This document shows positions 1,321 through 22,128 of a stretch of DNA of 34,963 nucleotides, one piece after another. Source of the DNA: Pseudomonadales bacterium. GTDB taxonomy: Bacteria; Pseudomonadota; Gammaproteobacteria; Pseudomonadales; Azotimanducaceae. The position numbers and the translations under genes were made by a program. The stretch is taken from positions 1 through 34,963 of the forward strand of contig JADHNT010000018.1 in assembly GCA_016779385.1 (NCBI GenBank), written 5' to 3'. The notes below the pieces were generated by a model, which saw nothing but the letters and a program-made list of their open reading frames with translations, was not told the DNA's origin and searched no databases. Position 1 is the stretch's first letter; the number at the start of each line of letters is the position of its first letter.

Positions 1321-2232
1321 ATGAGCTTCAATCCCTTGTTTACCCTGCTGGCCCGCGGCTTGGTTGATTTGGTGGAGCCGTCCCCTGATGTAATCGAGCT
1401 GGGCAACCAAACGCTGAATGCCGATCAGCGGGCTCTGCGCACGGTGCTGGCGCGCTCGAAAGGGCATGGTGGAATTGATCAAGCGGGCATAGAGGGGCTC
1501 CTGGCGAAAACTCCGGAGGCGCGCCGGGATCAGGCCGGAGCTTACATGCGCATGCTCGGGTTTCAGGATTACCAGGCGATCGACGTGAACGATCTCTATG
1601 GCAGCTTGGTGATGGATCTGAACAAGGATCTAGCGGCCACCTACGGCTACCACCGTACCTTCTCCCTGTGCACCAACAACGGCACGGGGGAGCACGTCTT
1701 TAACCAGGATGCGATTTTCCGGAACGTGCACGCCTTAACCAAGGTGGGAGGCGTGATGATTCACGTTATGCCCTTCATCGAGTACGTGAACCACGGCTTC
1801 TTCTCCTTTCACCCGAATCTTTACTACGCCGTGGCCGAGGCCAATGGCTACCGCATGCTGGCCATGGGCGTAGGGGCCCGCACCGGCCACGGCTTTTTGG
1901 CCGTGTCGCCCCAAAGCAAGGAACCTATCCCCGAGATGCTGCTCGATGAGCGGCGGGTGCCGCTGCGCTGGCTCTTGGCCGGGGCAAAGCCGCCGAAGGC
2001 GACCCTGCTCGATCAGCTGGGTTTCTACTTTCGCCCCCAGGATGACGGGCGCCGTTTCCACCGCGAGCTCCGCCGCCTTCAGCGCAAGCGTCCCAAGCTT
2101 TTGCTCTTCACCATCATGCGCAAGCTTGAGGACGCCCCCTTCAAAACCCCCATTCAGCTGCGCTACGCCGAGGATATCGGTGATGAGAGCCTGGCGAAGG
2201 AGTACGGCACCACCGCGGGGGCAGAGGCATGA
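1321..2232 (+). CDS. SAM-dependent methyltransferase-like protein
   Basis: The product is 303 residues. ATG at 1321 is chosen because it follows GAGGAGA and opens the conserved part; the frame is open from 1252. Features of a class I Rossmann methyltransferase are visible: a motif I-like VIELGNQ near residue 22, an acidic strand end in QAIDVNDLYG, then CTNNGTGEHVFNQ followed by FRNVHALTKVGGVMIHVMP and a long HGFFSFHPNLYYAVAEANGY segment. The pattern of an asparagine-rich GT-EH motif followed by FRN-H and HGF is one I associate with a poorly characterised methyltransferase family of marine bacteria and phages. The substrate is unknown. The ATGA junction (2229-2232) couples it to the oxygenase gene, suggesting that both act on the same molecule. 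Confidence 0.72.
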   Translation: MSFNPLFTLLARGLVDLVEPSPDVIELGNQTLNADQRALRTVLARSKGHGGIDQAGIEGLLAKTPEARRDQAGAYMRMLGFQDYQAIDVNDLYGSLVMDLNKDLAATYGYHRTFSLCTNNGTGEHVFNQDAIFRNVHALTKVGGVMIHVMPFIEYVNHGFFSFHPNLYYAVAEANGYRMLAMGVGARTGHGFLAVSPQSKEPIPEMLLDERRVPLRWLLAGAKPPKATLLDQLGFYFRPQDDGRRFHRELRRLQRKRPKLLLFTIMRKLEDAPFKTPIQLRYAEDIGDESLAKEYGTTAGAEA

Positions 2233-3068
2233 CCACGGTTCTGGATCGCCTGACGTCCGCCCATCTGCATCGCGAGCCCTTCGATCACTACGCCATTGAA
2301 GGGGCGCTTCCCGAGCACCTCTTTAGGGAGCTCGCGGAGAGTTTTCCGAGCCTTGAGTACGTGGCGGGTACGGGGACGCTCGAGAACAATCGCCCCTACC
2401 TTAAGTCGGCGTCGGAAGTGCTCGCCGACGAGGCCCTTCCCGTCGCCTGGCGAGCCTTCTTCGAGGCCCACACGGTGCCGGCCTTCTTCAAGCAGCTCCT
2501 GGCGCTCTGGGGAGATGCGATGCGCGCGGCCCATCCGCGCCTTGAGGACAATTTTGGGAAGCCCCTTGAAGCCTTCACCGTTGGCGTGCGCGCCCCGGGC
2601 AAGTGGGACAGCGCCGCGAATCGGCAGACGGACGTCGTGCTCGATTGCCTCTTTGGGGTGAACAGCCCGGTGAAAACGCCGACCCCGGCGCGGGGTCCGC
2701 ACGTCGATAGTCCGGCCAAGCTGTTTTCGACGCTACTTTATCTTCGGGACCCGGAGGATGATTGCGAGGGCGGGGCCTTCGAGCTCTACGCACCGAAGGG
2801 ACGGCTCTATCCGAAGCGCCAGTACAAGAAGATCCCCGATCATCGGGTGACCCGGGTCAAGCAGGTCCCTTATCAGGCCAACACGCTAGTGGGCTGGCTG
2901 AACGGCGCGAGGGCGATCCACGCCGTGGAGCCCCGTTCCGTGACCGAGCGGCCTCGGCGCTACATTGCAATTACCGCCGAGTGCTACGGCGGGCGCGAGT
3001 CCCAGGGGCACTTCCTTCACGACCCAAGCTGGTCATCTCTGACCGGGCGCCTACGAAACCTGTTCTAG
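2229..3068 (+). CDS. 2-oxoglutarate/Fe(II)-dependent oxygenase
   Basis: The product is 279 residues. The double-stranded beta-helix iron site is readable: His158-x-Asp160 in RGPHVDSP, the distal His231 in ARAIHAVEP and a candidate 2-oxoglutarate-binding Arg at 241-244 (RPRR). Between them lie LLYLRDPEDDCEGGAFELY and NTLVGWLN, the usual strand pattern of prolyl-hydroxylase-like enzymes. Such enzymes hydroxylate proteins, small molecules or glycans; the substrate cannot be read here. The start ATG overlaps the upstream stop by four bases. The stop overlaps the end of the convergent HAD gene by 18 bases. About 120 residues before the iron site show no recognised domain. Confidence 0.85.
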   Translation: MTTVLDRLTSAHLHREPFDHYAIEGALPEHLFRELAESFPSLEYVAGTGTLENNRPYLKSASEVLADEALPVAWRAFFEAHTVPAFFKQLLALWGDAMRAAHPRLEDNFGKPLEAFTVGVRAPGKWDSAANRQTDVVLDCLFGVNSPVKTPTPARGPHVDSPAKLFSTLLYLRDPEDDCEGGAFELYAPKGRLYPKRQYKKIPDHRVTRVKQVPYQANTLVGWLNGARAIHAVEPRSVTERPRRYIAITAECYGGRESQGHFLHDPSWSSLTGRLRNLF

Positions 3069-3689
3069 GGGCCCGCCGGCCAGCCACCGTTCCAGCTTGG
3101 CAATCGCGGCGTCGGCCTGCGTGGGGGTGGGCAGGTGCAGCCCCGCCATTCCCAGGGCCTCGCTTGCCGCAAGGTTCTCCTGACGATCATCGATAAACAC
3201 CGCGTCCTCCGGCGCAAAGGCGCCGGCGGCAAAGCTGTGGGCATAGATGCACTCTGCAGGCTTATTCACGCCCACGACGTAGGACAGGGTCATGCTTTGG
3301 AAGTAGCGGGGAAAGGCGTAGCGCTGGCATACGGCCCGCCAGGTATCGCGAGCGATGTTGGAGAGGAGGTGGCAGGGATGGTGGGCAGCGACCTGGGAAA
3401 GGAATGCCAGCATGGGCGTGACCGGCACGAGGCTGGCGGGCATGGCCTCAATAAGGGCCGAAAACAGCGCTTGAGGGTGCCCCGTGTCCTCGCTGCACTG
3501 GGCTGCGAGGGATTCCGCGGATAGGACGCCAGCGTCAAAGGCCTGCCAGCCCGGGCCCAGGAAGAGGGTCTCCCGAGCAGCGCTTTGGCTGGCCTCGTCC
3601 CATTGCCCGGCCAGCGCCGGGGGCAGGGTAACGGTTAACGGATCCCAGGCCAGGAGCACGTTGCCCAGGTCGAATACCAGATGCCGCAC
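3051..3689 (-). CDS. HAD-superfamily hydrolase, YihX-like
   Basis: The product is 212 residues. The four HAD motifs are present: the nucleophile Asp7 in VFDLGNVL, Ser110-Asn in HLLSNIARD, Lys143 in VNKPAE and the acidic pair in VFIDDRQENL (167-168). The DLGN version of motif I, with Asn where many HADs have a second Asp-Gly, is seen in the E. coli YihX group, which dephosphorylates sugar phosphates such as glucose-1-phosphate. A sugar-phosphate substrate would fit the glycosyltransferase-type genes upstream, from which it is separated by 15 bases, and it is probably the last gene of that - strand operon. Its 3' end overlaps the convergent oxygenase gene. Confidence 0.87.
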   Translation of the reverse strand: MRHLVFDLGNVLLAWDPLTVTLPPALAGQWDEASQSAARETLFLGPGWQAFDAGVLSAESLAAQCSEDTGHPQALFSALIEAMPASLVPVTPMLAFLSQVAAHHPCHLLSNIARDTWRAVCQRYAFPRYFQSMTLSYVVGVNKPAECIYAHSFAAGAFAPEDAVFIDDRQENLAASEALGMAGLHLPTPTQADAAIAKLERWLAGGPLEQVS

Positions 3690-3704
3690 CAGGGGGCTCA
3701 GGCC

Positions 3705-5144
3705 TTAGCCAACCCCTTCGAAATAGCGGCTCCGAACGCCCTTCTTAGTGAGCTTCTTGCGCTGCTCAAAGCTCCAGAGGCTCTTCTCCTGAGTGCAGAG
3801 CACCCAGCGAATGCCGGGGTTCCGGCGCGCGGCCAGAGCGATTTGCCCTGCCCACCAGGCCGGAGGTTGGTTGGTGCAGTGGGCATTGGTGCCGTCGGGC
3901 ATGATCTTTTTTGCCGGGTAGCAGGCCGCTACGGCATAGATAAATTTCTCGGCCTGGGCGAAGAGGTCGTCTAGGACCCAGGGGATGTCTTCCTCGGGGA
4001 TGTGCTCGAGCACGTCCGTGCTGATCACGCCGTCATAGGCTCCCTCGTAGGGATCGGAGAAGGGGGCGTAGCCCGGGTCATAGCAGGTTACGGAAACGCC
4101 GGGCCAGGCGTCCATGTGCTTATGGCGCGTTCCCGGCTGGCTGGGATCGTCCTTGTAGAGCTGGCCCTTGCCCGCGCCGAAATCCAAGAGCGTTCGGCTA
4201 TCCGTGCGCTTGAGGAGCTTCGCGACCGGCGCGATATGTTCCGTGAGGGAAATGCCCTTGAAGGTGTCCTTGGCTGCATGGCCCGATTCCGGCCGACCGT
4301 CCTCGTGCATGGAGGCATACATGGCGAGGAGCTCATGGTAGCGGGTGCTGGGCTCGGCCTTCTTGAAGAGGGTGTAGTTCGCTTCGTCTGCTTCCCGCTC
4401 CAGGGCATGCCACAGCTCACCGTTGGCGTTCGCGCCGTAGCGAAGCTGCTCCGGGAAGGGGGCCCAAGGCTGGGTGTGCAAGATGGTGTAGTGGAGAAGC
4501 TTGCTCTCCCCGGCCACGTATTCGTGATCCCGGGCGTTCCAAACGCCGGTCATGTGGCCCCAGAGCCCGGCATCGTGGACCAGCCCTCGATAGTGCTTAT
4601 GCTTCTGCAGCCGCTGCGTTTCTTCGAGGCGCCAAAGGGGCGCGAGCTTTTCGCAGTCCAGCAGCATCACGGACGTTTCCTTGTCGTTGATGCTGAGAAC
4701 CGCGGCGTCGCCCATGGGCGCATCAAAAAGCTCGGCGGGGTCGGCGAGGTATATCTGGTCGACATCATTGTAGATCGCCCGGCCTTGGTTGCCGGCAAGC
4801 GCCGGAATGGCATAGCGATAGTTGGTAAAGCCGGTTTTCCACTTGCTTCGGTCGAAGCCTTCGAGATCTTTCATGAGGTAGATCTCGTAGCGGCGACTGG
4901 GGTCGCGGTGCTTTTTCACGGACCAGACAAACACCCGCTCTGCTCGGTATTGGGCGGGCTCCGAGCCCAGGTAGATGCGCACCGGGGGCTTGTCCGAGGG
5001 GGTGACGCCGGGGTCCGGGTCCAGGGCCACAAGCACCGGGGCCTTCCGATCGCCGGGGCGTCGCACGCCCTCCATGCCGAGGGCCCCGCGAAGGGTCTTA
5101 TGGTAGGGGCGCGTTTTGAACTGGCCTTTTGCCGCTGCTTTCAC
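3705..5144 (-). CDS. GT8-like glycosyltransferase fused to SAM methyltransferase
   Basis: The product is 479 residues with two enzymatic domains. Residues about 54-235 look like a GT-A glycosyltransferase related to family GT8: VRIYLGSEP at the start, a metal-binding DxD in AIYNDVDQIYL (127-129), and a late HYTILHTQPW, resembling the HxxGxxKPW end of GT8 enzymes. Residues about 275-420 are a class I methyltransferase: motif I LLDFGAGKGQLY (319-330), an acidic strand end CYDPGY and ISTDVLEHIPEEDI. The start codon is GTG at 5144, which overlaps the upstream stop as GTGA. Known: GT8 enzymes transfer sugars from nucleotide donors. Inferred: the fusion adds a sugar and then methylates the same surface glycan or glycolipid. 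Donor and acceptor are unknown. Confidence 0.8.
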   Translation of the reverse strand: MKAAAKGQFKTRPYHKTLRGALGMEGVRRPGDRKAPVLVALDPDPGVTPSDKPPVRIYLGSEPAQYRAERVFVWSVKKHRDPSRRYEIYLMKDLEGFDRSKWKTGFTNYRYAIPALAGNQGRAIYNDVDQIYLADPAELFDAPMGDAAVLSINDKETSVMLLDCEKLAPLWRLEETQRLQKHKHYRGLVHDAGLWGHMTGVWNARDHEYVAGESKLLHYTILHTQPWAPFPEQLRYGANANGELWHALEREADEANYTLFKKAEPSTRYHELLAMYASMHEDGRPESGHAAKDTFKGISLTEHIAPVAKLLKRTDSRTLLDFGAGKGQLYKDDPSQPGTRHKHMDAWPGVSVTCYDPGYAPFSDPYEGAYDGVISTDVLEHIPEEDIPWVLDDLFAQAEKFIYAVAACYPAKKIMPDGTNAHCTNQPPAWWAGQIALAARRNPGIRWVLCTQEKSLWSFEQRKKLTKKGVRSRYFEGVG

Positions 5145-6262
5145 CGGGGGTCCTCATTTTCTTGCGTGACGTCGTTAACGATTAGCCCGCGCTCGGCCAA
5201 TGCGGAATTGAGCACGGGGCTGGTGGTCTCTAGCGTGCCCTCATAACGCGAAAGCTGGGCGGCCAAAAAGGACAGCTCATCCTGGCGGTCGTGGGCGACG
5301 GTGTAGGCGTTCGGCGTTGCTTCGTCCCCAGGGTAGGCTCCCGCTGGGTGGGCGAAGAGGTCCATGCCCGCGATCCGCAAACGCTTAGGCGCGAGCGCTA
5401 CGGCCACCGCAATCATGATCGCACCATTTGTGGGGCGGAACACCCCCCCGGTGTCCGGGAAGAGCCCGAGCTGCTCTGCTGTCATGAAGCGCCGCCGGCC
5501 GGGCAGGAACGCACAGCGAGGCAAAAGGGCTTCGAAATCAGCCTCACGTTGGAAGATCAGGAGGGTATTACCGGGCACGGCGGCTACCGTGCCCCGAAGT
5601 CCGGTAAATACCACCTCCGGCCTGCTCAGAAAGCCCCGGGCTTTCCAGCTGTGGTTGACCCGAAACAGGCTGTCGTAGGCGGCCCGTGCAAGGGTTGGGT
5701 CTTCGCTGGACGGCCCATTGCCCAGCGCCCAGATCACCTCCGGATGGCCAAGGGCTTCTCGGAGCTCCGACAAGTCCCGGAGTCGTTCAAAGCGCCAGCG
5801 GGCAAGGGCTCGGAGAAGGCGATCGCCTCGCCGAGCGCGGGCGCTCCGTGCGGGCCCTTGGGCGAGAGCGCGCTCGAAGCGGGCGAGGAGGGCATCGGCG
5901 CTGCCTTCCCGAGTCCCCCCCGGGGCGGTCCAGGTGCCCCCCGGGGCCGCCACAAAAAGCGGAAGGTTAAGCGCCTCACAGGCCTCCGCCAGCCCCGGGG
6001 GAGGGCGGCCCCCGGCGAGGAATACGCCGTGGGCTTTGGCCCGAAGGAGCAATCGGGACCAGGCCCGGGGTACCGGGAGGGCGCCTAGAGGGGTTCCCTG
6101 AGCGAGGCCGTAGCTGTACCAGCGAAGCCGGGGAAAGCGCTGCGTCAGCGCTTCGAAGAGGGGCCCCCAGGGCTCAGCCTCTTCGGGCCCGAGCTGAAGA
6201 CATAGCACGCTTCGACCCTTCCGGCGCCGGAGCCAGCCCCAGCGCTGGAGCATGCGAGCCAT
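5141..6262 (-). CDS. Sialyltransferase-fold (GT29/GT42-like) protein with extra N-terminal domain
   Basis: The product is 373 residues. The C-terminal half (about 170-365) carries marks of the sialyltransferase superfamily: VIWALGNGPSSED (177-188), DSLFRVNHSW (197-206), and a later TNGAIMIAVAVAL followed by LRIAGMDLF (278-303), which matches the second conserved block of GT42/GT29 enzymes. The N-terminal 15-110 (LCLQLGPEEAEPWGPLFEAL, then RLRWYSYG) weakly resembles the N-terminal domain of Kdo transferase KdtA; this is uncertain. No signal peptide is seen, although the basic N-terminus could be membrane-peripheral. It sits 24 bases after the RidA gene and overlaps the GT-methyltransferase start by four bases. 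Either a glycosyltransferase using a CMP-sugar or a non-catalytic relative is possible. Confidence 0.66.
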   Translation of the reverse strand: MARMLQRWGWLRRRKGRSVLCLQLGPEEAEPWGPLFEALTQRFPRLRWYSYGLAQGTPLGALPVPRAWSRLLLRAKAHGVFLAGGRPPPGLAEACEALNLPLFVAAPGGTWTAPGGTREGSADALLARFERALAQGPARSARARRGDRLLRALARWRFERLRDLSELREALGHPEVIWALGNGPSSEDPTLARAAYDSLFRVNHSWKARGFLSRPEVVFTGLRGTVAAVPGNTLLIFQREADFEALLPRCAFLPGRRRFMTAEQLGLFPDTGGVFRPTNGAIMIAVAVALAPKRLRIAGMDLFAHPAGAYPGDEATPNAYTVAHDRQDELSFLAAQLSRYEGTLETTSPVLNSALAERGLIVNDVTQENEDPR

Positions 6263-6286
6263 GGGTGGCGCAGCCCGTTCTCGCCG

Positions 6287-7693
6287 CTAGCGCGGCGCCA
6301 CCGCCGTGGCCTCGATCTCGATGAGGGCTTGCCCCGGCAGGGCGACCACGGGGAGGGCCGTGCGCACGGGGCGGTGGGGATTGGCTTCGTTATTGAAAAA
6401 GGCCCCGTAGGCTCGGTTCCAGGCCTGGAACTGCCCCGGGAAATCGTCACCCACGTCGAGGTAGGCCCGAAGCTGTGCCACATCCTCAAAGCCCAGGCCT
6501 TGGGAGGCGAGGCGCTCCCCGAGGGTTTCCAGGGCTGAGCGCGCTTGCGCTTCCATGCCTGCGTCCCGCGGCACTCCGGCCTTGGCGATGCTGCCGGAGA
6601 CCAAGGTCAGGCTGGCATGGCGGGCGACGGACATGCTGTCGGCGAGGAAGCTCTTAGGGTCCCCGTGGGCCAAGAGGTTCGGATTGGCCCCGGTGCTGAC
6701 GCCGTGCGCATGGGCGCCCCGGGCGTCCGGGTAGGCCGCATAGGCCTCGATCTCGATGATGCGATTCGAGCTGTTGAACCCTGGCGCTGCCATGGTGGTG
6801 CGCGCCGGACGATGGGGATTTTCAGCATTGTTAAAGAACTCGTCGTAGGCCGTATTCCAGGCGGCAAAGTCCACGGCGCCGTCCTCGCGCAGATCCGGGG
6901 CCAGCATGGCTCGGAGGAAATAGACGTCCCGGAAGGTCAGGCCCTGGGCCCGAAGATTTGCATCGAGCTTTTGCAGCGCAGAGCGCGCCTGCGCGCTCAT
7001 GGGTCCCATGTGCGCGGGATCGCTTGTAGAGGCTTCGGGGTTCGCCGGATCCGCGAGCATGCCGGAGGTGAAGTAGAGGGGCGCGTTGCCGTTCATGGAA
7101 ACGGCCTGGGCGATGCGGCTGCCCGGGCGCGTCAGCGGGGACAGCATGGGATTGAGGGCCCGGGTGGCGGTCGCCCCTTTCCCGTCGGGATAGGCGGCGA
7201 GGAGCTCGATCTCGATGAGCAGCTCCGGCCGGCCCAGGCGGCTAATGCCAAGCGTCGTCCGGGTTGGGCGATGCTGCGTACCGTCGTCCAGGGCAAAGAA
7301 TTCCGTGAAGGCGCGATCCCAACCGCTCCAGTCAAAGCCCCCACCCTTCCCCGCATCGGCAACAAGATAGGCCCGGGCGTAGACCACGTCCTCCGGGCCT
7401 AGGCCGAGCGCCGCGAGGGTTTGGGCATGACCCTGGAGGGCCGAGCGGGCTTGTAGGTAGGTGTCGCCGTAGCGCGCCGGATCGTCGGCAGAGCGCCGGG
7501 GATCCTGGGGTTGGGCAATGCCACCGGAGGTCATCACGAAATCGCTGCCCACCGACAGGCGAGCGGCTGCGGAATAGGGTCGGCCTCCGCTCGGGGTGAA
7601 GTCCGTGGCCTGGGCAAGGCTGGCCCAGCCGAGGGCGGCGATGCCGATGAGGGTGTAGACGCTGTGAAGGCGGTAAAATCGGCGAAGGTTCAT
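6287..7693 (-). CDS. Exported protein with three tandem RidA (YjgF/UK114) domains
   Basis: The product is 468 residues. ATG at 7693 is chosen because GGGGAG precedes it and it places a signal peptide at the N-terminus: basic MNLRRFYR, hydrophobic LIGIAALGWASL, cleavage after AQA (about residue 29). Three RidA-like modules follow at about 30-170, 175-315 and 320-467. Each starts near a VTSGG/ITSG-type strand and ends with the family's R-x-x-R-T then IEIE block (RPTRTTLG, RPARTTMA, RPVRTALP), so the arginine that binds the substrate carboxylate in RidA is kept in all three. RidA proteins are normally single-domain cytosolic trimers that hydrolyse reactive enamines or imines. Three modules in one chain could mimic that trimer in the periplasm. 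It heads the - strand operon. Confidence 0.82.
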   Translation of the reverse strand: MNLRRFYRLHSVYTLIGIAALGWASLAQATDFTPSGGRPYSAAARLSVGSDFVMTSGGIAQPQDPRRSADDPARYGDTYLQARSALQGHAQTLAALGLGPEDVVYARAYLVADAGKGGGFDWSGWDRAFTEFFALDDGTQHRPTRTTLGISRLGRPELLIEIELLAAYPDGKGATATRALNPMLSPLTRPGSRIAQAVSMNGNAPLYFTSGMLADPANPEASTSDPAHMGPMSAQARSALQKLDANLRAQGLTFRDVYFLRAMLAPDLREDGAVDFAAWNTAYDEFFNNAENPHRPARTTMAAPGFNSSNRIIEIEAYAAYPDARGAHAHGVSTGANPNLLAHGDPKSFLADSMSVARHASLTLVSGSIAKAGVPRDAGMEAQARSALETLGERLASQGLGFEDVAQLRAYLDVGDDFPGQFQAWNRAYGAFFNNEANPHRPVRTALPVVALPGQALIEIEATAVAPR

Positions 7694-7820
7694 GGCCCGG
7701 ACTCCCCAAGGATAAGGGGCAAAGTGTAGCACCGGTGTCGCCGCGCCAAAAAACGGGTTCATGGCAGATGAGGGGGATCTAGGGAGAAGTGGAGGCGAGC
7801 GGCTGCGCTCATTGAGGGCG

Positions 7821-16279: not shown

Positions 16280-18817
16280 ATGAACGCGCTCGATCGCTCG
16301 GGACCGAGCGTGCTCCACAGCGCCTACGGCGCAGAGATGGGCGCCTTTGACGAATTGCTCGGGGGGGACGGGGCGCCTCGGACCCACTGGGCGCGGCTGC
16401 TCCATGCCTTTGGGCAGTTGGGCCCTGAAGATCTGGAGCAGCGGCGCCGCGATGCCCGGCGACTGTTTCGGGAAAACGGCCTGACCTTCAGCGCCGGCCC
16501 GGGGGCGGCGAGCCGCCCCTACGATCTCGATCCCATTCCCCATCTCGTACCCCCGGACGCCTGGGCCGTGCTCGAAAGCGGCCTGCGGCAGCGCGCCCAG
16601 CTGCTCGATGCGGTGCTCCAGGATCTCTATGGCCCTCGGCATCTATTGCGCCAGGGAGTCCTTCCTGCCGATCTTATTTATCGGCACCGGGGCTATCTTC
16701 AGGGCCTCCTAGGAGCCGGCGGCATGGAGCAGGCCTTGGCCTTCTACGGCGCGGATGTGGTGCGCCGGGGGGATGGTTCCTTTGCCGTACTTGGGGACCG
16801 CACCCAGGCACCTGCAGGCGTGGGGCTCGCCCTGGAGACGCGCATTGTCACCTCGCGCATTCTCCCGAACCTGATTCGTGCCAGCCATGTGCATCGCCTC
16901 GCCAGCTTCTTTGAACACCTTCGGGGCGCCGTGGTGGACCTTGCGCCGCACCAGCGGTTGCGCCCGCGGATTGCTGTGCTCGCCTCAGGAATTAGCGATC
17001 CCCACTATTTTGACCACGCTTACTTGGCGAGCTATCTAGGCTTTCCTTTGCTTCAGGCGGGGGATCTCACGGTCCGGGAGGGCCGGGTCTGGCTGCGCAC
17101 CATCGGGGGGTTGAAGCTTCTTGATGTGGTGCTCCGTCGAACCGGCGATCACGAGAGCGACGCGCTTCTCGTTCCCGATGGGGAAACGGGGGTTCCGGGG
17201 CTTGGAGAAGCGGCCCTCCGAGGGGAGGTGGCGCTGGCGAACGGGCTCGGGGTGTCGATCCTTGAGCACCCGGGGCTCATGCCCTACCTGCCCCAGCTCG
17301 CTCGTCAGGTTCTTGGAGAAGATTTGAAGCTCCCGTCCGTGGAAACTTGGTGGTGTGGGACGGCCCAGGGACGGCAGCACGTACTCGCAAACCTTGAATT
17401 GATGGTCATCAAGCCCATTGATCGCAGCGGTCAGGCACTGTGGGGGGGCGCCCTCTCTACCGAGGCCCGGGACAACCTTCGGCGGCAAATTGAAGCGGAC
17501 CCGGAGATCTTCGTGGGTCAGCCTGCAGCCTTGGAGGGGACGGCAGCGACCTTGGTGGACGGGCAGCTGCGTCCCCAGGCCGTGCTCACCCGCTTCTTTG
17601 CCACCCGCCAGGGCCGGGACTTTGAGGTGATGACCGGCGGCTTCACCCGCGTCGCGGGGCCCCGGGGCGGTCCCCTGGCCCTGGGCAGCGAGCTCCGCGG
17701 CCTGTGCAAGGACACCTGGGTGCTTGCGGACGAGACGGAGCGTCATTTGATTCGCTGGCCCCGCGCCGTCCCGGAGGTGGGGCCGGGGGCCCCGGAGCAG
17801 CTCCCTAGCCGGGTCGCGGACAATCTGTACTGGGTAGGACGCTATGCGGAGCGGGCCGAGGGGCTCGCGCGCATGGCCCGGGCCGTGCTGCGCCACGCCC
17901 GGGAGGTTCGGGATTACGGGGATCCCGCCGATGCTGTGGCCCTCGGGCGCCTCATCGACGGTTTCTGCGCCCTGGCGGGGGTGGCCTCCGATGCCTTCCC
18001 CCACCGGGATGAGGTGCTGCTCACCCTGCTGCTTGATGAGCAGCAACCAGGCAGCCTCCCCCAAACGCTCTTACGCCTCGGACAGGCCGCGGAGCAGTTG
18101 AAGGATCGCTGGGCCCCGGACGCCAGCCGCGTGCTCGATGAGATCGGGCAGCGCCTCGTGCAAGCCCAGGGGCTGTCTCCTCAGGTCCTCGGGGCCGTCG
18201 AGGAGGCTCTTGATCCGTTGATTACGGCACTTTTGACCTTCTCCGGGCTGAGCCTGGAGAGCATGACCCGGGAGCAGGGGTGGCGCTTTTTGATGATCGG
18301 GCGTCGCCTCGAACGGGCCCAGGGGACGGCTACGCTGCTGCTGGAAACCCTTGCTGAGGCTCCCGACAGCGCAGCGGAGCCACTCCTTCTCGAAAGCCTC
18401 TTGCGTGCCCACGATAGCGTGATGACGCACCGTCGTCGCTACCGCGCGCTTCTTGATCCGGCCTCGTTCCTCGAGGTGCTTCTGCTCGATGAGCAAAACC
18501 CCCGGAGCGTGGCCTTCCAGCTCGTCGAGCTAGAGGCCCTGCTTCAAGCATTGCCCCGAAGCGGCCCGGGGCTGGCCCCGGAGCAGCGGGCCCTTTTGGA
18601 AGTCCGCACCGCCCTGCGCCTTGCCGAGGCGGAGGCCCTCGCGGCTCAGCCCGTGACGGGTGGGGCCGAATCGCGGCAGCGGCGGGCCCTGCAAAGCCTG
18701 CTCTGGACCCTGCTCACGGGGCTTTCTCAAACCAGCAGCGCCGTCGGCGACGCCTATTTCCTTCATTTGGAGGCGGCTCGATCCATGGCGCTCCGGGGCC
18801 AGGGGGGCAAGGCGTGA
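16280..18817 (+). CDS. Circularly permuted ATP-grasp fused to alpha-E domain
   Basis: The product is 845 residues. Residues about 20-490 align by eye with the stand-alone permuted ATP-grasp encoded at 19718 (DUF404/DUF407 type), and about 507-845 with the alpha-E (DUF403) protein at 21169, starting at SRVADNLYWVGRYAERAEGL. The family is predicted to join a carboxylate to an amine using ATP. In this copy several motif residues differ from the stand-alone protein: LGDRTQAPAG (171-180) replaces LEDNLRVPSG, and KPIDRSGQALWGG (378-390) replaces KPVNESGGYGM, losing the glycine-rich turn and an acidic Glu. It may be a non-catalytic or altered partner subunit; this is inference. The stop overlaps the transglutaminase start as GTGA. 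Confidence 0.88.
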   Translation: MNALDRSGPSVLHSAYGAEMGAFDELLGGDGAPRTHWARLLHAFGQLGPEDLEQRRRDARRLFRENGLTFSAGPGAASRPYDLDPIPHLVPPDAWAVLESGLRQRAQLLDAVLQDLYGPRHLLRQGVLPADLIYRHRGYLQGLLGAGGMEQALAFYGADVVRRGDGSFAVLGDRTQAPAGVGLALETRIVTSRILPNLIRASHVHRLASFFEHLRGAVVDLAPHQRLRPRIAVLASGISDPHYFDHAYLASYLGFPLLQAGDLTVREGRVWLRTIGGLKLLDVVLRRTGDHESDALLVPDGETGVPGLGEAALRGEVALANGLGVSILEHPGLMPYLPQLARQVLGEDLKLPSVETWWCGTAQGRQHVLANLELMVIKPIDRSGQALWGGALSTEARDNLRRQIEADPEIFVGQPAALEGTAATLVDGQLRPQAVLTRFFATRQGRDFEVMTGGFTRVAGPRGGPLALGSELRGLCKDTWVLADETERHLIRWPRAVPEVGPGAPEQLPSRVADNLYWVGRYAERAEGLARMARAVLRHAREVRDYGDPADAVALGRLIDGFCALAGVASDAFPHRDEVLLTLLLDEQQPGSLPQTLLRLGQAAEQLKDRWAPDASRVLDEIGQRLVQAQGLSPQVLGAVEEALDPLITALLTFSGLSLESMTREQGWRFLMIGRRLERAQGTATLLLETLAEAPDSAAEPLLLESLLRAHDSVMTHRRRYRALLDPASFLEVLLLDEQNPRSVAFQLVELEALLQALPRSGPGLAPEQRALLEVRTALRLAEAEALAAQPVTGGAESRQRRALQSLLWTLLTGLSQTSSAVGDAYFLHLEAARSMALRGQGGKA

Positions 18818-19728
18818 GGCTTCAGGTTCGTCATCGCACTACCTATCACTACAGTGAGCCGGTCACCCTGGGGCATACGGAGGCGCGGCTGACGCCCCCA
18901 GACCGGGGCCGGCAGCGCCGCCTTAGCTTCGATCTACAGGTTTCCCCCGTGCCCAAGGTACTTCATTGCCGGGAGGACGCCTTCGGCAATGCGGTGACCC
19001 GCTTCTCCGTGGAAACGCCCCACAGTCAGCTTGTGGTGGAGGCCCTCTCGTTGCTGGAGATTGCTCCGGCGGAGGCAGAGCTGCCTCTGGCGGGCCCGCG
19101 CAGCGTCGCCGAGGTTCAGGCGGCCTTCCGCGATCCGCAAACAGAGGCGCAGCGGCTCCAACGGCTCTTTTGTCTGCCCTCGGCCTACGTGCCCCAGCTC
19201 CCCGAGCTTCGTGATTACGGGTTAGAAAGCTTCCATCCGCAGCGCGACGTGGTGGCGGCCACGCAGGAGCTTATGGAGCGTATTCACGACGATTTCCATT
19301 ACGACCCCACGGCGACGGAGGTCGAGACCCCCCTGCGCGAGGTGTTCGAAGGGCGCCGCGGCGTCTGCCAGGACTTCGCCCATTGTGCCCTCGGCGTGCT
19401 CCGGGCCCTGGGCTTGCCCGCGGCTTACTACTCGGGCTATCTGGAAACGGACCCGCCGCCGGGGGGTGAAGAGCTGGTGGGCGCCGACGCATCCCACGCC
19501 TGGTTCGCCTTGTACGTGCCCGAGCAGGGTTGGCTTGAGTTTGACCCGACGAACCGCCAACGGCCGACGGAGCGCTATGTGTTTCTCGGGCAGGGTCGGG
19601 ATTACGGTGATGCAGCGCCGCTCCGCGGGATTGTGCAGGGGGGAGGGAATCACGAGGTGCAGGTGAGCGTCGACGTCCACGCCTCGCCGCTCGCGGCGCC
19701 AGGGGAGGAAGGTGGCCATGACCATTAA
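18814..19728 (+). CDS. Transglutaminase-like cysteine protease/amidase with bacterial N-terminal domain
   Basis: The product is 304 residues. GTG at 18814 is the start, overlapping the previous stop by four bases. Residues 1-90 form the Bact_transglu_N beta-domain (MRLQVRHRTTYHYSEPVTLG at the very N-terminus). The core carries the papain-like triad: Cys185 in GRRGVCQDFAH, His228 in ADASHAWF and Asp244 in LEFDPTN. Proteins of this type hydrolyse or rearrange amide bonds. There is no signal peptide, so it should act in the cytosol together with the ATP-grasp proteins on either side. Its last 11 bases overlap the next gene. It could trim, transfer or cross-link the product of the ATP-grasp ligase. 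Confidence 0.92.
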   Translation: MRLQVRHRTTYHYSEPVTLGHTEARLTPPDRGRQRRLSFDLQVSPVPKVLHCREDAFGNAVTRFSVETPHSQLVVEALSLLEIAPAEAELPLAGPRSVAEVQAAFRDPQTEAQRLQRLFCLPSAYVPQLPELRDYGLESFHPQRDVVAATQELMERIHDDFHYDPTATEVETPLREVFEGRRGVCQDFAHCALGVLRALGLPAAYYSGYLETDPPPGGEELVGADASHAWFALYVPEQGWLEFDPTNRQRPTERYVFLGQGRDYGDAAPLRGIVQGGGNHEVQVSVDVHASPLAAPGEEGGHDH

Positions 19729-21169
19729 TTGGGGTAGCTATGCCCAGCCTGGGCTTTTTGATGAGTGGGTGACGGAGAAGGGTCGCCTGCGCGCCGGCTT
19801 CAGGCAGTTGGGCAAGCGCTTCTCCACTTACTCCATGGACGCGCTCCATGATCGCAGCGCGAGCCTCGAGCGAGCGATTAAGGAGCAGGGGGTGACCTTC
19901 ACGGTCTATTCCGAGGCCCACGGGTCTATTGATCGCAGCTGGCCCCTGGATTTGATGCCCCGAATCCTTCGGCGTCAGGAATGGCTCACCATCGAAGCGG
20001 GCCTGGCCCAGCGAGTGAAGGCCCTCAACTGCCTCATCGATGATCTCTATCACGATCAGCGCTGCATCAAGGATGGGGTGTTGCCGGCTTTCCTTCTGGA
20101 AAACTCCGCCAACTTCCGTCCTCAGTGCGTGGGGGTGAATCCGCCCCTCGGGGTGTGGGCCCATATCTGCGGCAGCGACCTGGTTCGCCACGAGGACGGG
20201 CAGATGTACGTCCTTGAGGATAACCTCCGGGTGCCCTCGGGGGTTTCCTACATGCTGGAAAACCGCGGCGTGATGAAGCGGACCTTCCCCGAGCTCTTTG
20301 CGAATTTTGCCATCGAGCCCGTAGACGCCTATCCCTCCCAGCTCTACGACACGCTTTGCGCCCTGGCGCCGCACCGGGCCCAGCCCGAGGTGGTGGTGCT
20401 CACTCCCGGAGTCTTCAACTCCGCCTATTTTGAACACGCCTACCTCGCGCAGCAGATGGGCTGCGAGCTGGTGGAGGGTCGGGATCTAGTGGTGAATAGC
20501 CAGGACGAGGTGTTCATGCTGACCACCCGGGGGCGGGCGCGGGTGGATGTGATCTACCGCAGGATTGACGATGCCTTCCTCGATCCCGAGGCCTTTAACA
20601 AGGATTCCCTTCTTGGCGTGCCGGGACTCATGCGCGCTTGGAAGGCCGGAAAGGTGGCGCTCGCGAATGCCCCCGGGGCCGGGGTTGCGGATGACAAAGC
20701 GGTGTATTGCTTCGTGCCTGACCTCATTCGCTATTACCTTGGTGAAGCCCCTCTGCTGCCGAACGTGCCGAGCTATATCTGCGCGCGGAAGGAGGAGCGG
20801 GAGTACGTGCTCGACCATATCGATGAGCTGGTGGTGAAACCGGTGAACGAGTCCGGGGGCTACGGCATGCTCCTGGGCCCTCAGGCCACCCCCAAGGCTC
20901 GGGAGGCCTTCCGAAAAAAGATTCAGCGTAATCCGCGAAACTACATGGCCCAGCCCATGCTGAACCTGTCCACCGTTCCGACCTTCCTTGGCCAGGCGGT
21001 GGAGCCGCGTCACGTGGATCTGCGCCCCTTTATCCTGTCCGGAGAGTCCGTGCAGGTCACCACAGGAGGGCTCACGCGGGTCGCAATGCGTAAGGGTTCC
21101 CTGGTGGTGAACTCTTCCCAGGGGGGCGGCAGTAAGGACACCTGGGTGATCGACGAGGGGGGACGCTGA
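19718..21169 (+). CDS. Circularly permuted ATP-grasp protein (DUF404/DUF407 type)
   Basis: The product is 483 residues. ATG at 19718 is preferred over GTG at 19712 because AGGAAGG sits at the right distance. Family hallmarks are intact: YHDQRCIKDGVLP, VRHEDGQMYVLEDNLRVPSG (LEDNLRVPSG at 166-175), VLTPGVFNSAYFEHAYLAQ, VVKPVNESGGYGM (372-384) and DLRPF then VTTGGLTRVA. The ATP-grasp motifs therefore look competent, unlike the fused copy upstream. The predicted role is ATP-dependent amide or peptide ligation; the substrates are unknown. The start overlaps the transglutaminase gene and the stop overlaps the alpha-E start as TGATG, so it is the third gene of a coupled operon. Confidence 0.93.
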   Translation: MTINWGSYAQPGLFDEWVTEKGRLRAGFRQLGKRFSTYSMDALHDRSASLERAIKEQGVTFTVYSEAHGSIDRSWPLDLMPRILRRQEWLTIEAGLAQRVKALNCLIDDLYHDQRCIKDGVLPAFLLENSANFRPQCVGVNPPLGVWAHICGSDLVRHEDGQMYVLEDNLRVPSGVSYMLENRGVMKRTFPELFANFAIEPVDAYPSQLYDTLCALAPHRAQPEVVVLTPGVFNSAYFEHAYLAQQMGCELVEGRDLVVNSQDEVFMLTTRGRARVDVIYRRIDDAFLDPEAFNKDSLLGVPGLMRAWKAGKVALANAPGAGVADDKAVYCFVPDLIRYYLGEAPLLPNVPSYICARKEEREYVLDHIDELVVKPVNESGGYGMLLGPQATPKAREAFRKKIQRNPRNYMAQPMLNLSTVPTFLGQAVEPRHVDLRPFILSGESVQVTTGGLTRVAMRKGSLVVNSSQGGGSKDTWVIDEGGR

Positions 21170-22128
21170 TGCTCGCGCGGGTTGCGGAAAATATGTATTG
21201 GATGGCGCGCTACCTTGAGCGCGCCGAGGATCTCGCGCGGTTGATCGACGTGACGACGCACCTTCACCTCGATTTACCCCGGGGTAGCACGCCCAGCTGG
21301 GGGACGCTGCTAACGCTCGTTGGGGCTGAGGAAAGTTACCGGGAAAAGCACGGTACGGCCGAAGACGAAGGGCGCGTGCTGCGTTTTTTGCTTGGCGATA
21401 AGGACCACCCCCAATCCCTCCGAGCCGCCATTGCCGCGGCCCGGTCGAACGCCCGGGGCTTCCGGGAAGTCTTTCCCCGGGAAGCCTGGGAGGACATTAA
21501 CGGCCTGTACCACTTTAGCCAGGAGCAGCTGAAGAGCGGCCTGAGTAAGCGGGGGCGCCATACCTACCTCCGGGGAATTATCACGCGGGTGCAGACCGTG
21601 GTGGGGCGCCTCGAGGGGGCCATGAACCGCGATGAGGCCTATTACTTTATCGAGCTTGGGCGCCAGCTTGAGCGCGCGGACATGACCACTCGGCTCATCG
21701 ACAGCAGCAGCGCGCGCCTCGTCCCCCAGGAAGGTAGTGGTGGGGCACGCTTTGACGATTTGCAGTGGATGAGCGTGCTAAAAAGCTTAACCGGGTATCA
21801 GATGTATCGTCTGGAGATGCAGCGCGCCATTCGCTCTGAGTCTGTACTGGCGTTCCTTTTTCAGTCCTCGCGCTTTCCCCGATCCGTGGCGGGGGCTCTG
21901 TTGGCCCTTCGCCGCAGTCTCGAAGCGCTTGATCCAGACGCCTCCCTGCCTCGGCGTCTCCCCCAGGTGCTGCGCCAGGTGAGCCAGCTCGAGCCCGAGG
22001 GGTTGGCTGGGGAAAAGCTTCACGCTCTGATCGATGAATTGCAGCAGGGATTTGCGGACATTCATGGCCAGCTCGAGCGTCGCTATTTCCGCCCCTCTCG
22101 GAGCGCGGATCCGGAAACGGCAAGCTAG
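21169..22128 (+). CDS. Alpha-E domain protein (DUF403)
   Basis: The product is 319 residues, predicted to be all helical. The N-terminal signature LARVAENMYWMARYLERAEDLARLIDV matches the alpha-E family and recurs in the fused protein at 16280. Later conserved segments include YFIELGRQLERADMTTRLID and QSSRFPRSVAGAL. Alpha-E proteins nearly always occur beside permuted ATP-grasp ligases; their function is not established, with scaffold or substrate binding as suggestions. ATG overlaps the ATP-grasp stop. The end overlaps the convergent TrkH gene by four bases, closing the operon. Confidence 0.93.
   Translation: MLARVAENMYWMARYLERAEDLARLIDVTTHLHLDLPRGSTPSWGTLLTLVGAEESYREKHGTAEDEGRVLRFLLGDKDHPQSLRAAIAAARSNARGFREVFPREAWEDINGLYHFSQEQLKSGLSKRGRHTYLRGIITRVQTVVGRLEGAMNRDEAYYFIELGRQLERADMTTRLIDSSSARLVPQEGSGGARFDDLQWMSVLKSLTGYQMYRLEMQRAIRSESVLAFLFQSSRFPRSVAGALLALRRSLEALDPDASLPRRLPQVLRQVSQLEPEGLAGEKLHALIDELQQGFADIHGQLERRYFRPSRSADPETAS

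Follow-up and report, generated by a model that had tools for sequence, protein, structure and literature searches.

A conserved glycosyltransferase pair as a candidate builder of sphingolipid headgroups in a gammaproteobacterial genus with apparent loss of lipopolysaccharide

The window analyzed here is a stretch of 34,963 nucleotides (contig JADHNT010000018.1 of assembly GCA_016779385.1, from a Pseudomonadales bacterium of the Azotimanducaceae), which forms contig C14 of a draft genome of 2.42 Mb (127 contigs, 90.6% complete); its positions 1321-7693 carry six tightly spaced genes for predicted tailoring enzymes. This island is two things: a core pair, composed of a GT42-like protein and a fusion of a GT8-like glycosyltransferase with a methyltransferase and accompanied by a 2-oxoglutarate-Fe(II) (2OG) oxygenase and a methyltransferase-like (MTlike) protein, and the probable passengers HAD and RidA. 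The reading that we favor, and to which we give an even chance of being right, is that the four-gene module makes and modifies the sugar headgroup of a ceramide- or ceramide-phosphate-based sphingolipid of the outer membrane, which has probably replaced lipopolysaccharide (LPS) in the genus. It is based on the genes themselves, their predicted folds, the company they keep, a ceramide-type locus in the same genome, and searches for LpxC and WaaA that gave no match in the genus. The six genes are:

1321-2232, plus strand: MTlike gene (303-aa protein), methyltransferase-like by motif reading only; rare.
2229-3068, plus strand: 2OG-Fe(II) oxygenase of family PF13640 with metal-binding residues; part of the module.
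3051-3689, minus strand: HAD-IA hydrolase (TIGR01509); probable passenger.
3705-5144, minus strand, GTG start: GT8-like/methyltransferase fusion, core (GT8-like ~residues 50-258, methyltransferase ~260-480).
5141-6262, minus strand: GT42-like gene, core (N-terminal Rossmann-like domain ~16-138, GT42-like sialyltransferase-fold domain ~160-372).
6287-7693, minus strand: secreted-looking triple-RidA protein with three PF01042 stretches; probable passenger (the open reading frame may start at 7762).

All six reading frames reported by the first-pass annotation are present where it placed them, and the order and short spacing of its two convergent sets agree with the overlaps and gaps that we measured: 4-base overlaps join 1321-2232 to 2229-3068 and 3705-5144 to 5141-6262, the minus-strand run (7693-6287, 6262-5141, 5144-3705, 3689-3051) has, besides its one overlap, gaps of only 15 and 24 bases, and the 2OG and HAD genes overlap convergently by 18 bases. 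The six are real genes under purifying selection (dN/dS 0.03-0.17, one pairwise comparison with a congener for each), with the MTlike gene at 0.03 in its one such comparison.

The GT42-like protein had been labeled "sialyltransferase-like", and for residues ~160-372 this label holds, as GT42-like, by fold and by weak profile matches. Its AlphaFold model (mean predicted local distance difference test score, pLDDT, 81.4) found Cst-I as the first-ranked structure in the second of two structure comparisons (Z-score: 13.6, root mean square deviation (rmsd): 4.3, 201 residues), accompanied by eight other Cst-I/Cst-II entries and a Pasteurella sialyltransferase (Z: 10.8-12.6), with an archaeal HPPK (Z: 11.1), SteA (Z: 10.7) and a mammalian sialyltransferase (Z: 10.5) close behind; Foldseek alone reported SteA as the top match and no GT42 member among its best 50 rows. 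Profiles of the relatives of this protein matched Cst enzymes weakly (E-value 2.2e-4 with 4 rows, 1.8e-3 with 20 rows), and the Pfam CST-I profile scored 12.7 bits, below its cut-off of 25. Residues G181-N-G-P184, F200-R201, N203, D301, Y310 and H324 are invariant in all 20 rows of the family alignment, while F303 corresponds to a Tyr of Cst-II in the profile alignment. In Cst-II a His and two Tyr are catalytic; H324 is the putative equivalent of that His, and Y310 is a candidate for one of the Tyr. Two relatives of the GT42-like protein also reach the N-terminal domain profile of WaaA (PF04413) in a six-frame search (24.6-25.3 bits, cut-off 23.9), but as proteins they score 22.5 and 23.8 bits, slightly below the same cut-off, and the window's own protein has no PF04413 match at the protein level.

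For the fusion protein (model pLDDT 81.7), the best structural match of the first half, a GT8-like GT-A domain, is a GT8 protein (Z: 15.9, rmsd: 2.8, 186 residues), with LgtC at Z 14.6, and the DxD motif, here NDVD, is present in 14/14 alignment rows; Pfam gave no glycosyltransferase family match for this protein. For the second half, the assignment comes from a PHROG methyltransferase profile (E-value 5e-22) and a Pfam match below threshold, since the PDB rows lie mostly within the GT8-like half. The earlier designation as a glycosyltransferase-methyltransferase fusion is thus retained, by predicted fold for one half and by profiles for the other. In PHROGs only the fusion and the HAD protein were matched, with no match for the GT42-like, 2OG, MTlike and RidA proteins.

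The 2OG oxygenase scores just above the PF13640 cut-off (27.8 vs 27 bits) and its residues H158, D160, H231 and R243/R244 are kept in 3/3 rows, which upholds its annotation including the metal-binding residues; its alignment found no match among PDB sequences. Comparison with the 2OG oxygenases encoded near the fusion in other genomes (hhalign probability 95.6%, E-value 1.3e-8, 229 columns) indicates that it is a remote relative of those found in 17 of the 44 fusion loci described below. The MTlike protein has no family match in Pfam, NCBIfam, PHROGs or PDB sequences; among 194 genomes sampled from the order, the window's own was the only one in which it was found, and its orthologues adjoin the 2OG gene in genomes G001, G004 and G029. 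The first-pass annotation had called it simply a methyltransferase: the motif reading remains, but no library backs the family. The original description of the island as a whole is partly confirmed.

We followed the module in two samples: 58 genomes comprising the window's own (G000) and its relatives, of which G000-G004 belong to the window's genus, and 44 fusion loci collected by a pattern scan of named genomes, six of which (L040, L041, L042, L044, L060, L079) are also among the 58 relatives. Genes around the fusion loci were called by a crude codon-position score. Among the 58 genomes, the fusion search gave 16 matches, of which 7 are true fusions (G000, G001, G002, G004, G007, G016 and G029, the G007 copy being cut at a contig end), 3 match only the methyltransferase half and 6 are only distant paralogues of the glycosyltransferase. 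G029, from another genus, has all four module genes (45-64% identity), with neither HAD nor RidA in its stretch, and the GT42-like/fusion pair is present in G016 and G007. Across the 44 loci, a GT42-like gene lies near the fusion in 28, never on the opposite strand and at a distance of 0-1,274 bases, before the fusion in some and after it in others; in L061 a sulfotransferase-like gene is inserted between the two. The 2OG and MTlike genes of the window's type accompany the fusion in 3/44 loci (two congeners and G029's own record). The first-pass annotation had proposed a pathway that decorates a glycan, glycolipid or secreted compound, and for these four genes the decoration of a glycan or glycolipid is supported.

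The same does not apply to the HAD and RidA genes, which the first-pass annotation had counted as members. In the gene-neighborhood comparison that it had itself suggested, they occur near the fusion in 3/44 loci, all three from the window's genus, and are probably passengers outside the module. The HAD protein is indeed of the HAD-IA type (TIGR01509, 32.8 bits vs cut-off 29.4). The other was described as an exported RidA: the RidA assignment stands, threefold, with three PF01042 stretches within one chain, while the support for export is a reading of the N-terminus. RidA proteins are usually separate trimers, and this triple protein with a signal-like N-terminus resembles a single-chain trimer.

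The neighborhoods of the fusion point to a sphingolipid acceptor. At least one ceramide- or phosphosphingolipid-type marker was found near the fusion in 18/44 loci, where one marker alone, for example an NTP transferase (L074) or an acyl-AMP ligase (L067), was enough for a hit. The gene sets vary among Salinisphaera, Hansschlegelia, Limibaculum, Thermohalobaculum, Pelagibius, Roseovarius and others, and are drawn from fatty acyl-AMP ligase, CerR-like epimerase, serine palmitoyltransferase (Spt), ceramide-synthase-type GNAT acyltransferase, DAGK-type kinase, NTP transferase, phosphoesterase, ELM1-type glycosyltransferase (22/44 loci) and ABC exporter (16/44, an upper bound that includes generic ABC genes). 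Spt is encoded in the same stretch as the fusion in 6/44 loci (two Salinisphaera, two Hansschlegelia, Limibaculum and Thermohalobaculum) and somewhere in the genome, at 380 bits or more, in 32/44. This presence cut was set after seeing the gap between 386 and 290 bits; genomes with weaker matches, at 290, 282, 274 and 242 bits in Binatia, Deltaproteobacteria and Myxococcales and at no more than 225 bits in other taxa, were counted as Spt-absent. In Gammaproteobacteria 11/13 carriers of the fusion have Spt vs 16/274 sampled genomes, the window's own included (Fisher test, P = 4e-11; 8/10 carriers without the congeners, P = 2e-8), and in Alphaproteobacteria 20/24 carriers vs 39/289 (P = 2e-13, four carriers removed from the background). 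The seven loci from neither class, one of them in a genome with Spt, were left out of these tests, and all Fisher tests given here ignore phylogeny.

The window's genome has a ceramide-type locus of its own, on contig C127. It encodes Spt (NF047599 of NCBIfam, 567 bits vs cut-off 500), a fatty acyl-AMP ligase, a CerR-like protein, an NTP transferase, a phosphoesterase, a DAGK-type kinase, LptF/G and ABC genes, as well as three ELM1 proteins (two identified by Pfam, one by BLAST), a sulfotransferase and a distant paralogue of the GT8-like half of the fusion. The kinase scores 44.5 bits with DAGK_cat (cut-off 23.6) and matches the kinase of fusion locus L045 at 39%, which makes it a candidate ceramide kinase. 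Labels such as CerR-like or CC1161-like denote family, gene order and similarity to the fusion loci rather than similarity measured against the Caulobacter proteins themselves. No ceramide synthase of the GNAT type was seen in the two examined stretches of C127, the first 5 kb and the remaining genome not having been searched. The sulfotransferase gene (L104, 7890-8810) lies beside the ELM1-type glycosyltransferases inside this locus, and a similar gene is found in L061.

The genus seems to have lost the usual LPS. LpxC has no match in 8 of the 58 relatives, namely all five genomes of the genus, G016, G029 and G044, and is present in the other 50. The fusion occurs in 6 of these 8 genomes vs 1/50 with LpxC (Fisher test, P = 5e-6; counted by genus, 3/4 vs 1/50, P = 6e-4), and clear Spt in 7/8 vs 9/50 (P = 3e-4). 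WaaA, sought in 17 genomes, was not matched in the five congeners, G016, G029 and G080, and in G007 the only match to a WaaA domain is the GT42-like protein itself. The first-pass annotation had remarked that no standard LPS gene is nearby; for LpxC and WaaA this extends beyond the window to 5/5 genomes of the genus. G007 has the gene run exbB-exbD-msbA-lpxK-kdsB, where G000, G003 and G029 read exbB-exbD-kdsB (msbA and lpxK were not searched for elsewhere in these three). A kdsB-type gene is found in G000, G002, G003, G004, G007, G016 and G029, hence in 4/5 of the genus (G001 has a single match, below threshold). LptD is kept in 7/8 LpxC-less genomes, including 5/5 of the genus, with no match in G029 or G007. 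NeuB was not found in G000-G004, G007, G016 or G029 and is present in 3 of the 17 genomes examined (G065, G080 and G091).

Several observations from this survey deserve mention on their own. The disappearance of msbA-lpxK between exbD and the kdsB-type gene in L121, L122 and L123, as compared with L125, looks like a footprint of the loss of the lipid A pathway. G007 (L035, L125) has LpxC and msbA-lpxK, no WaaA-domain match other than the GT42-like protein and no LptD match; either the draft is incomplete here, or the GT42-like protein may stand in for WaaA. G044, from another family of the order and rated 100% complete, has no LpxC match, has Spt and LptD, lacks the fusion, and is a second LPS-less candidate. 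G080 (Hansschlegelia, L062) has no match to the WaaA N-domain despite six matches to the cytidylyltransferase family.

In the pathway that we propose, the C127 locus would make ceramide and ceramide-phosphate, the GT8-like half of the fusion would attach a sugar and the fused domain methylate it, the GT42-like enzyme would attach a cytidine monophosphate (CMP)-activated acidic sugar, and the 2OG oxygenase would hydroxylate. The finished lipid might leave by the Lpt route, proposed because LptD is kept and the C127 locus contains an LptF/G-type permease.

A number of findings weigh against this proposal. The module is unlinked to the spt locus in its own genome. G003, of the same genus, and G044 are LpxC-less and have Spt but not the fusion, which means that the fusion is not required for life without LPS; conversely, the pair coexists with LpxC and msbA-lpxK in G007, and 4/5 fusion-bearing Alphaproteobacteria tested have WaaA, so LPS loss does not follow from the presence of the module. 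The WaaA comparison covered 17 genomes, none of them an LpxC-positive relative free of the fusion. No marker was found in the examined stretch of 26/44 loci, many of them on short contigs, and the 18 loci with markers include close relatives (the Pelagibius, Roseovarius, Hansschlegelia and Salinisphaera groups). Clear Spt is missing from 12/44 fusion genomes, including three of Neomegalonema and one of Methylopila. In G029, which has all four module genes, Spt, LpxC and LptD gave no match; either the acceptor is a different one there, or genes are absent from the assembly. Finally, draft genomes can mimic absence; yet the five congeners agree with each other, and in two of them the kdsB site shows that the msbA-lpxK pair is missing.

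An alternative is that the module decorates another molecule, for instance a glycoprotein, a glycolipid of another kind, a capsule or an exopolysaccharide, and has no more than loose ties to sphingolipid genes. The marker-free loci and the genomes without clear Spt, G029 among them, argue for this, as do several loci of the Roseovarius type that also have TupA-like and glycerophosphotransferase-like genes; on the other hand, Spt is enriched in the carrier genomes of two classes and lies in the fusion stretch itself in the six loci named above. We regard this alternative as a serious one, albeit on balance unlikely. Still less probable in our view is that the enzymes decorate the inner core of LPS or lipid A, as in many LPS loci. 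That reading was favored first, from G022, where a distant relative of the methyltransferase domain lies among genes read by eye as LPS-core genes (waaA, hldE), and from G029, where an LpxL-like lipid A acyltransferase gene adjoins the four-gene set; the LPS genes of G007, with its GT42-like protein as the sole WaaA-domain match, and the WaaA of the alphaproteobacterial carriers also speak for it. It lost this place when searches of the genus for LpxC and WaaA gave no match; moreover, G000 and G003 have no msbA-lpxK pair at their kdsB site, and the same acyltransferase family is also found inside a Salinisphaera sphingolipid cluster.

We consider it very improbable that six unrelated enzymes came together here by chance. 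The restriction of HAD and RidA to three congeneric loci speaks for this, but four of the six genes recur together in another genus and two are close to each other in 28/44 loci, and for the four-gene core this explanation is largely refuted.

Within the sphingolipid reading that we prefer, there is a candidate for the acidic sugar. Of the two routes to a CMP-activated acidic sugar that were looked for, only the one to 3-deoxy-D-manno-oct-2-ulosonic acid (Kdo) has a gene in the genus, where the kdsB-type gene is kept and NeuB was not found. We speculate that the CMP-Kdo pathway might have been retained and put to a new use in a genus without lipid A, and that the GT42-like enzyme, with a possibly WaaA-like N-terminal domain, might transfer Kdo rather than sialic acid to a ceramide-phosphate glycolipid that would be exported by Lpt as a substitute for LPS. 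The grounds are the retention of the kdsB-type gene without msbA-lpxK, the negative NeuB search, the WaaA-domain resemblance, the sole WaaA match in G007, the retention of LptD, and the precedent of a plant sialyltransferase-like Kdo transferase. The Kdo transfer step is a guess with some support, and this full scenario is doubtful; G003, which keeps the kdsB-type gene without the fusion, counts against it. Sialic acid as the donor was rejected for the genus after the NeuB search, but may apply in the NeuB-bearing G065, G080 and G091.

The question why some Gram-negative bacteria can dispense with LPS is still open (PMC10964400). Our results point to a genus of Gammaproteobacteria that has apparently switched naturally from LPS, Caulobacter being a known system in which sphingolipids help, and they single out the conserved glycosyltransferase pair as candidate builders of the headgroup of the replacement lipid. 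The pair occurs in cultured, named isolates, among them Roseovarius marisflavi DSM 29327, Hansschlegelia beijingensis DSM 25481 and Pelagibius litoralis DSM 21314, so the idea is open to experiment. Among the titles and the beginnings of abstracts of the best-ranked open-licence papers, we found no description of it.

Elsewhere in the window, a run of genes at 16280-22125 encodes two circularly permuted ATP-grasp proteins, Alpha-E domains and a transglutaminase, and may be a peptide-modifying cluster. A tRNA scan found no tRNA.

Among known enzymes, the GT42-like protein is closest to Cst-I and Cst-II of Campylobacter: its residues 160-372 have their fold in the model, and G-N-G-P, F-R-x-N, T-x-G and G-x-D are sequence stretches common to them. 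It differs from them by an additional N-terminal Rossmann-like domain, by an identity of only 16-19%, by F303 in place of Tyr, and by its setting in a genus where NeuB was not found. With WaaA (GT30) the possible likeness is confined to the N-terminal domain, for which two relatives reach the cut-off in the six-frame search and fall just below it as proteins, whereas the C-terminal half of the window's protein is GT42-like and that protein is itself unmatched. For RCKT1, a plant sialyltransferase-like protein of family GT29 with a model superposed on Cst-II, evidence is reported for transfer from CMP-beta-Kdo (PMC11288761); the parallel is that of a sialyltransferase-like protein tied to Kdo transfer, but the family, the kingdom and the acceptor (pectin) are different.

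At the level of pathways, the nearest counterpart is the synthesis of ceramide (di)phosphoglycerate in Caulobacter crescentus, with spt, cerR, aasR, cerS, the ceramide kinase gene CpgB/CC_1160, CC_1161, CC_1153, CC_1158 and LptF2/G2 (PMC11324152), and several of these families are gathered in one locus of the window's genome. The anionic sphingolipids of Caulobacter are reported to aid survival without LPS (PMC12275187; PMC11324152), which they support in part (PMC12275187). In contrast to the module described here, no GT42-like, GT8-methyltransferase or PF13640 gene is named in the accessible text on that pathway (PMC11324152). Sphingomonas offers a second parallel, as a taxon that makes sphingolipids and naturally has no lipid A (PMC10964400); it belongs to the Alphaproteobacteria, and the likeness to its glycosphingolipids comes from this description and not from a comparison of glycosyltransferases. 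The enzymes are ordinary singly and unusual as a set; they probably represent a variant way of decorating bacterial sphingolipids, in a lineage that has apparently abandoned LPS.

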